Assembly (NCBI RefSeq): GCF_016793225.1
Contig: NZ_JAEUMN010000087.1
Span: 1 to 64,000 of the forward strand
Source of the DNA: Phenylobacterium sp.
GTDB taxonomy: Bacteria; Pseudomonadota; Alphaproteobacteria; Caulobacterales; Caulobacteraceae
Direction of reading: 5' to 3'
Length of the DNA: 64,000 nt
A program made the position numbers and the translations under genes. The notes under the pieces are model-generated. The model was not told the DNA's origin, searched no databases, and saw only the letters and a program-made list of their open reading frames with translations. This document shows, one piece after another, positions 57,148 to 59,641 of the stretch (its first letter is position 1; each line of letters starts with the position of its first letter).

Positions 57148-57181
57148 CCCGTCCCGGCGTGCTCGCCGAAGCGAAAGCACA

Positions 57182-57221
57182 GATGCTCCCCCCCTGGGGG
57201 AGCTCGCGAAGCGAGAGGGGG
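57182..57221. repeat. GC-rich palindromic repeat, copy 2
   Basis: GATGCTCCCCCCCTGGGGG then AGCTCGCGAAGCGAGAGGGGG, almost identical to copy 1 at 44516 and copy 3 at 57942. Copies 2 and 3 bracket the tandem REP array. Confidence 0.8.
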
Positions 57222-57245
57222 AAGGACGCCAAACCTGCCCAGCCC

Positions 57246-57923
57246 CGTCATCCCGCGGCTCGTCCGCGGGACCCCTGCCGGCGGCGACGCAGGCGCGTCC
57301 GGGCGGTCCTGCCACGCCGGCCGCCTCACAGCCGGCGGAAACATGGATCCCGCGGACAAGCCGCGGGATGACGGTGGGTTTTCGTGTGGGATCGCCGATG
57401 CAGGCGAGGGGCGGTGGCCCCATCCCCTCTAGCCGCAAAGGGCGCGGAGGCCTCCGCGCGCTCCGCGTTCTCCGCGGTTCAATCGAGCGCCTGCGAGCTC
57501 GCCGCCCTGCCCAGCCCCGTCATCCCGCGGCGTGTCCGCGGGACCCATGCCGGCGGCCACGCGGGCGCCTAGCGGTCCTGTCACGCCGCCTACCTCACAG
57601 CCGGCGGAAACATGGATCCCGCGGACAAGCCGCGGGATGACGGTGGGGTTTCGTGTGGGATCGCCGATGAAGGCGAGGGGCGGTGGCCCCAACCCCTCTA
57701 ACCGCAAAGGTCGCGGAGGCCTCTGCGCGCTCCGCGTTCTCCTCCGCGTCCTCCGCGGTTCAATCGAGCGCCCGCGAGCTCGCCGCCCTGCCCAGCCCCG
57801 TCATCCCGCGGCGCGTCCGCGGGACCCATGCCGGCGGCGACGTGGGCGCCTAGCGGTCCTGCCACGCCGGCCGCCTCACAGCCGGCGGAAGCATGGATCC
57901 CGCGGACAAGCCGCGGGATGACG
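57246..57923. repeat. tandem array of three paired-REP elements
   Basis: Three units (57246-57373, 57518-57642, 57799-57923) each begin CGTCATCCCGCGG and end in the inverse CCGCGGGATGACG, with inner CCGGCGG and ATGGATCCCGCGGACAAGCC motifs. The ~145-155 bp between units is itself duplicated (GGGATCGCCGATG, GGCGAGGGGCGGTGGCCCC, CTCCGCGTTCTC, TCAATCGAGCGC), giving a period of 272 and then 281 bp. No convincing gene is inside; ORFs through it translate the repeat. With its flanks it accounts for the 880-bp gap 57148-58030. Confidence 0.85.
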
Positions 57924-57941
57924 GTGGGAGGCGAAAACGAA

Positions 57942-57981
57942 GATGCTCCCCCTCTGGGGGAGCTCGCGAAGCGAGAGGGGG
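57942..57981. repeat. GC-rich palindromic repeat, copy 3
   Basis: GATGCTCCCCCTCTGGGGG then AGCTCGCGAAGCGAGAGGGGG; differs from copy 2 by one base in the C-run. It ends 14 bp before the promoter described next. Confidence 0.8.
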
Positions 57982-57995
57982 AACGGCCGCCAGGT

Positions 57996-58029
57996 TTGAC
58001 TCCCCACGCCGCATGTTCTACATTTGTTC
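57996..58029 (+). promoter_or_regulatory. sigma-70 promoter with overlapping LexA-type box
   Basis: TTGACT (57996-58001) and TACATT (58019-58024) are 17 bp apart. GTTC (58015-58018) and GTTC (58026-58029) are separated by exactly 7 bp, the alphaproteobacterial SOS box GTTC-N7-GTTC, which encloses the -10 element. The predicted transcription start falls at about 58030-58032, on the ATG of the next gene. Repression by LexA and induction by DNA damage are inferred. Confidence 0.6.
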
Positions 58030-58030
58030 C

Positions 58031-58612
58031 ATGTCGTCGCCCGACCCGCGCCTTGCGATGCTCGCCCGGATGCGCGAGCCCGCCCTAGAGCTGGGCTGCG
58101 CCGTGGCCGAGGCGGCCAAGGCGTCGGTTGTGGGCGACGCGCGGTTCTTCGGCCTGACCGAGCTCTACCTCAAGTGCTTCGCGGCGGTGCGCCTGTCGAT
58201 CGCCCTGGAGCTGCGGCTCGAGCGTGAGGCGCGGCTCGCGTCGCGCGCCGCGCCGGACGGCCCCCTGGCCGGCCGGGACGCGGACCTGGAACCCACCCCG
58301 GAACCGGAGCGGCTCGACAGCGACCTGGCCGGCGAGCGCGAGCGTGAGACCGCCAGCTTCCCGTTGCTGCTTCGGACCCTGGAGGGGGTGGTGGACGAGG
58401 CGGCGAGCCTCGTGACGCCCGAGCCCGCCGAACTTCCGACGCTGCGCGATCTCATGGCCCGTCTTCAGGGGCCGCGCGCGGAGGCGCCCGCCCGCCCGTC
58501 GCGCGACCTGCGCGCCCGTCTCTCCGGATCGGCGTCGGTGGCGGTCCTGCCCCGGCCGGTCCTGACGCCGTCGCAGCCGGGCGGCCGCGCCACGGGGCCG
58601 CCCCGCGGCTGA
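58031..58612 (+). CDS. unrecognised protein, putatively SOS-regulated
   Basis: 193 aa from the ATG at 58031. N-terminal ~85 residues are helical (MSSPDPRLAMLARMREPALE; FFGLTELYLKCFAAVRLSIA then LELRLEREARLA), followed by an acidic linker, a second helical stretch (ETASFPLLLRTLEGVVDEAA) and a Pro/Arg-rich tail. No signal peptide or domain is recognised. There is no room for a Shine-Dalgarno: the ATG coincides with the predicted transcription start, so the mRNA is probably leaderless. The frame extends upstream only by reading repeats. Confidence 0.65.
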   Translation: MSSPDPRLAMLARMREPALELGCAVAEAAKASVVGDARFFGLTELYLKCFAAVRLSIALELRLEREARLASRAAPDGPLAGRDADLEPTPEPERLDSDLAGERERETASFPLLLRTLEGVVDEAASLVTPEPAELPTLRDLMARLQGPRAEAPARPSRDLRARLSGSASVAVLPRPVLTPSQPGGRATGPPRG

Positions 58613-58645
58613 CCCGTCGCGTCCGCGGGCCGCAACGCCCGTCAG

Positions 58646-59641
58646 CTATCCATCCACGTCCACGACGATCCGGCCGCGCACCTTGCCGTCCAGGATGTCT
58701 CCCGCCAGTCGCGGCAGGTCCGCGAGCGTGGCGCGGCTTGTCATGGCCGACAGCCTGGCGAGGTCCAGGTCGCGGGCCAGGCGGTCCCAGGCCTCCACCC
58801 GGTCGGGCGCCGGGCGCATCACGCTGTCGATGCCCGCCAGCACCACGCCGCGCAGGATGAAGGGCGCCACCGAGGCCGGCAGGTCCAGGCCCTGGGCCAG
58901 GCCGCAGGCGGTGACCACCCCGCCGTAGCGCGTCTGCGAGAGCACATTGGCCAGGGTGTGGCTGCCCACCGCGTCCACCGCGCCGGCCCAGCGCTCCTTG
59001 CCCAGCGGGCGTGCGGGGCCCTGGAACTCGGCGGCGTCGATCACCTCGGCGGCGCCGAGGCCCGTCAGGTAGCCGCCTTCGCTCTCCTTCCGCCGCGACG
59101 AGGCGACGACGCGGTAGCCCAGCTTCGCCAAAAGGGCGATCGCCACGCTGCCGACCCCGCCGGCCGCGCCGGTCACCAGGATGTCGCCCCTGTCGGGCGT
59201 GACGCCCTGCTTCTCCAGGGCCAGCACGCACAGCATGGCGGTGTAGCCCGCCGTGCCGATCGCCATGGCCTGGGCGCTGGTCAGGCCCTGCGGCAGTTTC
59301 ACCAGCCAGTCGCCCCTGACCCGGGCGCGCTGGGCGTAGCCGCCATGGTGCGTCTCGCCCACGCCCCAGCCGTTCAGGACCACCCGGTCGCCGGGCGCGA
59401 AGCCGGCATGGCTCGAGCTCTCCACCACGCCCGCGAAGTCGATCCCCGGGATCAGCGGCCAGACCCGCACCACCGGCGAGCGGCCGGTCAGGGCCAGCCC
59501 GTCCTTGAAGTTGATCGTCGAGTGTTCGACGCGGACGGTGACGTCGCCGTCCATCAGGTCGGCCGGGGTCAGGTCCTCGAGGCGGGCCTCCTGGCCGGCG
59601 TCGGTCTTGTGCAGGCGCAGCGCGCGGAACGTATCGCTCAT
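58646..59641 (-). CDS. acuI: acrylyl-CoA reductase-like MDR oxidoreductase (AcuI/YhdH family)
   Basis: 331 aa from an ATG at 59641 with GGAGGAG 8 nt upstream. YhdH/AcuI markers: [73 protein letters not shown]. Expected to reduce acryloyl-CoA to propionyl-CoA with NADPH, protecting against a toxic intermediate. Coupled to the upstream enoyl-CoA hydratase (overlap of stop and start), which supports a role in acyl-CoA metabolism. Confidence 0.83.

Follow-up and report, generated by a model that had tools for sequence, protein, structure and literature searches.

A multicopy Phenylobacterium gene family with predicted leaderless promoters fused to LexA- or DriD-type sites

We analysed a 64,000-nucleotide stretch of DNA from Phenylobacterium sp. 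(contig NZ_JAEUMN010000087.1, positions 1 to 64,000; hereafter the window) and found that an open reading frame (ORF) at 58031-58612 of its forward strand, encoding 193 amino acids (aa), is a member of a multicopy family of helical proteins of about 200 aa. In 145 of 155 copies the gene brings its own short promoter, in which core promoter and damage-regulator site are merged and the start codon lies near the predicted start of transcription. We consider it probable, at about three chances in four, that the window gene is a LexA-repressed, leaderless and DNA-damage-inducible member of this Phenylobacterium family. Both LexA and DriD belong to the DNA-damage regulators that have been described in Caulobacter. 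Judged from the promoter sequences, damage-inducible and leaderless expression is a well-supported prediction. The family is undescribed, and no account of it was found among the matches listed for open-licence literature on Caulobacter and alphaproteobacterial SOS and LexA, DriD, leaderless genes and Phenylobacterium, as far as the accessible text of these sources goes.

All elements of the window promoter lie on the forward strand. A -35-like TTGACT (57996-58001) is followed, after 17 nucleotides (nt), by a -10-like TACATT (58019-58024). The GTTC half-sites at 58015-58018 and 58026-58029 form a perfect GTTC-N7-GTTC box, a predicted LexA operator (GTTCTACATTTGTTC, 58015-58029) that overlaps the -10 and whose position is conserved in most homologues. 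The ATG (58031-58033) stands 1 nt past the box, at the predicted start of transcription. The original prediction, made from the letters of the window, had described this arrangement, and all of its elements were found where it had placed them. Its proposal of a candidate SOS gene also stands insofar as a LexA-controlled leaderless gene of no known family is supported in silico; a single gene was too narrow a description, as the genome contains 7 or 8 copies, and the LexA-only picture is too narrow for the family, some sister copies having a DriD-type box instead. The ORF is backed by the alignment of homologues and by a structure model. An alternative in-frame ATG upstream, at 57893, would give 239 aa; the start at 58031 is preferred because 57893 sits in repeats and the homologues align from the ATG at 58031 onward.

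Inside the window GTTC-N7-GTTC occurs once, against 1.03 matches expected from shuffles. The box alone is not significant and, one box per 64 kb being expected by chance, the window observation draws its weight entirely from sequences beyond the window. Genome-wide, the pattern has 122 matches against 20 for the reversed control pattern, and a box with an ATG no more than 12 nt downstream was found 20 times against 0 in the control (one box is counted twice, for two ATGs). The fused arrangement TTGAC-N11-18-box-N0-6-ATG occurs six times against 0 in the control, and the family accounts for all six of these promoters, each of which starts a member (C14, which is the window copy, C110, C119, C150, C151 and C171).

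These six own-genome copies have a LexA box and a start of the leaderless type, while in copy C9 the box is of DriD type; all 7 own-genome copies with a visible upstream region have one box or the other. Copies C150 and C151 are cut at contig ends and C43 is cut before its promoter. Because C43 could continue C150 or C151, the copy number is given as 7 or 8. A further candidate, C186, was a marginal match (E 2.4e-5) and was dropped.

A search with the window protein alone gave matches in its own genome and in 5 of 59 relatives; these five belong to its genus. The identity of the window protein to 42 other members is 28-47%. Inspection of the remaining boxes of the own genome revealed more leaderless-type genes behind a promoter of this kind, and profile A1, built from six of them, matched 26 of 249 genomes of the taxonomic family, of which 23, including the own genome, belong to the genus and 3 were matched weakly in one other genus. 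With profile A2 (15 sequences), 45 of 101 genus genomes, the own one included, were matched with 1-22 copies each, at most 33 candidates being scored per genome; across 385 genomes of the class A2 matched the own genome alone. From these searches the family is likely to be restricted to the genus. Among 25 loci from named records, 13 were labelled Phenylobacterium, 10 had broad labels (Proteobacteria, Alphaproteobacteria), one was a weak match in an Alphaproteobacteria metagenome-assembled genome and one was labelled Rubritepida. The last (L321, contig JAQGHY010000122.1) belongs to the family, its ATG being immediately preceded by the box, and may be mis-binned or transferred. Weak relatives without either box were seen in the other genus, g31 (L100-L102), L101 and L102 having TTGAC near the start. 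A single search of general genome contigs with the window protein gave no match; the window protein is divergent, and a set of close sequences from another subfamily did match.

In the first four full-length homologues to be detected, GTTCTAYYTTTGTTC stands 3-6 nt ahead of the ATG, and a fifth has a box with one mismatch 2 nt before it. A perfect box was seen 0-6 nt from the start in 123 of 158 distinct members (distinct ORFs with a profile match at E <= 1e-5), namely at 0 nt (64), 1 nt (11), 2 nt (31), 3 nt (12), 5 nt (3) or 6 nt (2); their start codons are ATG in 116, GTG in 6 and TTG in 1. The earlier expectation that homologues would keep the box was borne out for most of them, which retain both the box and its position relative to the start. 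When 155 members found by homology were re-scored for both boxes, 126 had a perfect LexA box, one a LexA box with a mismatch, 20 a DriD-type box (18 kept) and 8 neither; with L038 and L153, which match weakly, 10 of 155 have neither box or a weak match only. This count leaves out nine members from loci picked by the LexA pattern, and the own-genome copies that the box had first revealed were recovered by the profiles as well. Homologues lacking the box, which according to the original prediction would speak against it, thus form a minority (29 of 155 without a perfect LexA box), and this minority is not read as having lost damage control, since most of it carries a DriD-type box.

The spacer of the box is biased, with T at position 5 in 103 of the 123 and at positions 9, 10 and 11 in 122, 115 and 112, as is expected of a spacer that doubles as the -10. 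Of the 126 LexA-box members, 100 have a TTGAC no more than 24 nt from the box and 2 have a Shine-Dalgarno-like motif within 20 nt upstream. Over the genus (101 genomes, the own one included), 47 genomes contain the fused TTGAC/LexA-box/ATG pattern, with about 254 occurrences in sum (one place or more entering twice) against 3 in the control. Of these 47 genomes, 43 are among the 45 matched by A2, two of which have no match to the pattern.

Members without a LexA box were at first read as box-less, and this reading was given up when most of them were found to share TACG[AT]CCGNNTCTG[AT]CG[CT]A or near forms of it. The DriD consensus is ATACGAC-N7-GTCGTAT, and DriD sites overlap the -35 in the promoters studied (PMC12340889, preprint). 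The didA promoter contains AATACGTCCGTTTCTGGCGCATGG (PMC12340889), which is very similar to the boxes of the family. In 18 sister members the DriD-type site stands at the position of the -35; it ends 21-24 nt before the ATG in 17 of them and, in L004, 13 nt before the ATG or 22 nt before a second one. Because the ATG lies near the expected start of transcription, these copies are predicted to be leaderless as well. Of the 28 members that lack a LexA box, 18 match at least 11 of 12 DriD positions; this score was reached by 12 of 5600 dinucleotide shuffles and by 5 of the 125 LexA-box members. Two weak candidates for the DriD class, L038 and L153, were dropped. At the window promoter the best match to the DriD site has 9 of 12 positions, which is the background of LexA-box members. 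The five LexA-box members with a match (L170, L172, L173, L198 and L199) form a related clade and are counted as LexA in all tallies. They have a LexA box and, farther upstream and apparently in reverse orientation, a DriD-type box, and dual control of this clade is possible from this layout.

In the own genome the exact DriD pattern occurs at four places: at the DriD-like gene, upstream of recA, at the family copy on C9 and inside one ORF. Exact matches alone were used there, as a scan with one mismatch gave noise (44 matches against 35 in the control). The core motif is present in 73 of 101 genus genomes, up to 17 times in one, with a control total of 4. Among 20 motif sites picked from family-bearing genomes, 11 start members by profile, 4 are cut at contig ends and have a promoter and start like those of neighbours, and 5 are non-family; among 29 loci taken one per genome, 8 are family members, one site (L350 and L375) being common to both sets. 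As only part of the sites start family members, the motif serves other genes too, and candidate DriD targets outside Caulobacter crescentus are suggested, with recA among them.

The two promoter types appear to have been exchanged repeatedly. A quick tree of 149 members (131 LexA rows, pattern-chosen loci included, and 18 DriD rows) has nine LexA/DriD changes, at least five of them forced by strongly supported branches, such support being less safe in quick trees with long rows (here L055, L098 and L004). Partial ORFs, members with neither box and L036, L037, L038, L100-L102 and L153 were left out of it. In a 152-row tree under a simpler model seven changes were counted, and in genome G680 the sister copies L175 and L218 differ in their regulator site. 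The repeated exchange of LexA repressor for DriD activator can be seen as a natural experiment, in which selection would keep the damage cue and not the regulator. If the promoters work as predicted, 45 of 101 genus genomes carry a large undescribed branch of the DNA-damage response.

Both regulators appear to be encoded in the own genome. One LexA homologue was found, and GTTCTCTAGGTGTTC, in reverse orientation about 40 nt upstream of the lexA start, places a box at lexA's own promoter. A protein named DeoR-family regulator in the table matches 8tp8, which we take to be Caulobacter DriD, at E 6e-136; a DriD homologue was thus detected, in a search that covered the own genome alone, and the promoter of its gene has a DriD-type box. 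The family shares its operator with the SOS regulon of Caulobacter crescentus, in which LexA binds GTTC-N7-GTTC (PMC12700426). The accessible part of that source describes no multicopy family and no box-fused leaderless promoters, its regulon not having been compared with ours gene by gene. A third Caulobacter damage regulator, Cada2, answers methylation damage (PMC10957082).

The mechanism that we propose is drawn from the anatomy of the promoter and the known biology of LexA. LexA bound at 58015-58029 would cover the -10 and block RNA polymerase; single-stranded DNA would activate RecA, LexA would be cleaved, transcription would begin at or within a few bases of the ATG at 58031, and the leaderless mRNA would be translated at once. 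For DriD-type copies the outcome would be the same, brought about by an activator that responds to single-stranded DNA.

Some boxes of both types lie near other genes of the own genome. At L249 (about G000:C164:2527-2739) a perfect DriD-type box (TACGACCGTTTTTGACGTA) lies far upstream of recA, a gene recognised by reading its translation, and a GTTC-N7-GTTC box on the other strand lies between this box and the recA start; joint control of recA by both boxes is possible, as far as their placement goes. At L007, L012, L023 and L026 the box is directly followed by TTGAC, so that it stands upstream of the -35; the downstream genes encode a protein with a weak HNH match (L007), a DUF1963 protein (L012) and a protein like the small subunit of phage terminase (L023). 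GTTC-N7-GTTC was also found upstream of an mraZ gene (L056) and of a gene for an AlkZ-like DNA glycosylase (L041).

The coding part of the family is under purifying selection in the pairs compared. The ratio of nonsynonymous to synonymous substitution rates (dN/dS) has a median of 0.41 in 101 coding pairs and is below 0.5 in 79 of them, ORFs of genome G011 outside 190-230 aa having been left out. The predicted damage switch in the promoters of most copies suggests that producing the protein when DNA is broken may benefit the cell or the gene itself.

Several observations weigh against the interpretation of the family as damage-inducible leaderless genes. The core promoter is imperfect: TTGAC is missing from the 24 nt ahead of the box in 26 of 126 LexA-box members, and -35 and -10 are most often 19 nt apart and not 17. 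In 95 of 126 another in-frame ATG, GTG or TTG, often the TTG of the box itself, occurs no more than 36 nt upstream before a stop, and the assignment of the start rests on promoter position and conservation. Eight of 155 members have neither box. The fused pattern is not exclusive: it was found once each in 4 of the 56 genomes that A2 did not match, and of 20 pattern matches picked as not-yet-known members 11 belong to the family and 9 do not; the fused LexA promoter is mostly, not only, used by the family. The family sites had already been seen when the published DriD consensus was relaxed to the 12-position pattern; under the published 14-position scoring 16 of 18 kept members reach 9-12, L177 reaches 8 and L004 10. 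Some copies are broken: several family matches carry an internal stop, and 3 of the 15 copies of G011 (L328, L333 and L335) have disrupted frames behind an intact promoter. G011 also supplies 55 of the 101 dN/dS pairs (median 0.44), and no fold or family match backs any activity of the protein.

The distribution of copies points to dispersal of the gene together with its promoter. Within a genome, the copies of the sets compared are about 78-95% identical and have different flanks, and the match mostly begins 20-90 nt ahead of the ATG and ends near the stop, some pairs sharing longer flanks. All 15 copies of G011 are in one chromosome; 14 are about 83-94% alike and L338 is about 70-77% identical to the others. 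Their common core begins near -47, and most have palindromes resembling repetitive extragenic palindromic (REP) sequences outside it. In the window, the gene belongs to an insert of about 1.5 kb (57148-58655, limits approximate, from comparison with relatives) between a glutathione peroxidase gene and a quinone-oxidoreductase-type gene. In six relatives the aligned ends of the same two neighbours are 11-79 nt apart and the insert is absent; the other five of the 11 loci examined from a 40-genome search showed only one of the two neighbours. The unit of promoter and gene would thus multiply and insert between genes. Tentatively, and with somewhat less than even confidence, it can be hypothesized that it represents a new class of damage-triggered genetic unit: a promoter of about 50 nt and one gene that spreads to tens of genomic places between conserved genes, with selection holding damage control so strictly that LexA repressor and DriD activator sites swap repeatedly while the leaderless start is kept. 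Such a unit could be a host-evolved redundant set of effectors or a selfish unit cued by DNA breakage.

The purely selfish version, in which promoter and gene are propagated for their own sake, copying or insertion is furthered by the encoded protein itself and the damage switch makes mobility coincide with DNA breakage, is conceivable and rather doubtful. It would agree with 1-22 copies per genome patchily present in 45 of 101 genomes, with the similarity of copies in different flanks, with insertion between conserved neighbours and with the REP-like palindromes beside the window copy and most of the 15 copies of G011. However, neither family nor fold searches gave a recombinase or transposase signature, and no clean or consistent terminal repeats or target duplications were seen by eye in the copies compared, where no systematic test was made. 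Copies with clear transposon ends were sought by eye and this idea was dropped, the outer limits varying with the adjoining REP-like palindromes. A phage or plasmid origin also found no support: phage records gave no match for L095, plasmid records none for L095 or the window protein, and two viral-contig scans with profiles A5 and A6 none. It should be mentioned that a stretch of about 310 nt 3' of the stop, with inverted ends (CTCCGCTCATCCCGGCGAAAGCCGGGATCC and its complement), is conserved in most of 11 aligned copies of the G011 set (L326-L340) and resembles a miniature inverted-repeat transposable element.

The protein itself gives few clues to its activity. Helices are predicted in the window protein at residues 6-31, 37-73, 97-106, 110-127, 134-146 and 160-164, followed by a poorly ordered tail ending in RATGPPRG; models show long helices and a poorly ordered tail, with a mean predicted local distance difference test score (pLDDT) of 79.1 for the window protein and 89.5 for L146. 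The earlier statement that the protein matches no family was upheld, with no family at E <= 1 in Pfam, NCBIfam, PHROGs and PADLOC; nine other members scanned in the same four libraries gave weak, mutually inconsistent matches only (best E 0.0044). A fold search of PDB with both models found nothing at or below E 0.001, the best values being 0.2 for the window protein and 0.59 for L146; the L146 model had no match at this threshold in BFVD (best 0.034), and a profile search of PDB sequences gave nothing below E 0.06. Recurrent C-terminal ends were observed in 151 complete divergent members, namely SSA (30), DTG (19), PRR (10), PSG (7) and DSS (7), and may mark a functional C-terminus, either a binding end or a degron or other proteolysis signal. 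With low certainty, we suggest that the protein could be an accessory damage-triggered effector or adaptor (checkpoint-, growth-arrest- or defence-like) and not a core repair enzyme, in view of its predicted control by two damage regulators and the variation in copy number.

SidA and DidA, small inner-membrane proteins, inhibit division in Caulobacter and are induced via the RecA/LexA and DriD pathways. A more specific version of the effector idea is that the family comprises growth- or division-arrest effectors induced by damage, SidA/DidA-like in logic, which we regard as unlikely. The same two regulators are predicted for the family, and DriD control of didA and RecA-dependent induction of sidA have been published (PMC4211646). 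However, no sequence relation to SidA or DidA was shown, and the members, of about 200 aa, look soluble by hydropathy: over 19 residues 1 of 150 members reaches 1.6, the maximum for the window protein is 1.25, and by this measure no membrane-spanning segment of the SidA/DidA type was indicated for it. The Caulobacter DriD regulon includes didA, bapE, recJ and dnaG (PMC12340889); it resembles the family in the boxes of the sister copies and differs from it in that the window gene has no DriD site above background and that the family is a different, multicopy protein. Under LexA, the family is accessory and patchy like the LexA-controlled toxin genes of E. coli, tisB, symE and hokE, but no sequence or fold relation to them was found. 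To our knowledge, high copy number and LexA/DriD exchange are not features of these toxin genes.

A constitutive window gene, with a LexA box that arose by chance or serves a different regulator, is very unlikely. The single match in the window is what chance would give, but the position-specific conservation in divergent members, the excess of fused promoters over the control in the genus and the replacement of the LexA box by a DriD-type site in sister copies argue against it. That the ORF is a by-product of repeat sequence and not a protein gene, as the adjoining tandem array, the long alternative frames overlapping it and the broken relatives might suggest, is extremely improbable given its protein-level identity to 42 members, the low dN/dS and the confident helical models.

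The repeats upstream of the window gene form a tandem array of about 280-nt units, bracketed by two copies of a 56-nt REP-like palindromic sequence (57168-57983 in all). One of these copies (57928-57983) adjoins the promoter upstream and the second (57168-57223) is 91% identical to it. Part of the array, with CCGTCATCCCGCGG palindromes, spans 57461-57928 and includes the copies 57461-57647 and 57742-57928 (95% identical); a further repeat pair of the same array, 57303-57473 and 57572-57742, is 94% identical. Repeats related to this array were seen at further genome sites.
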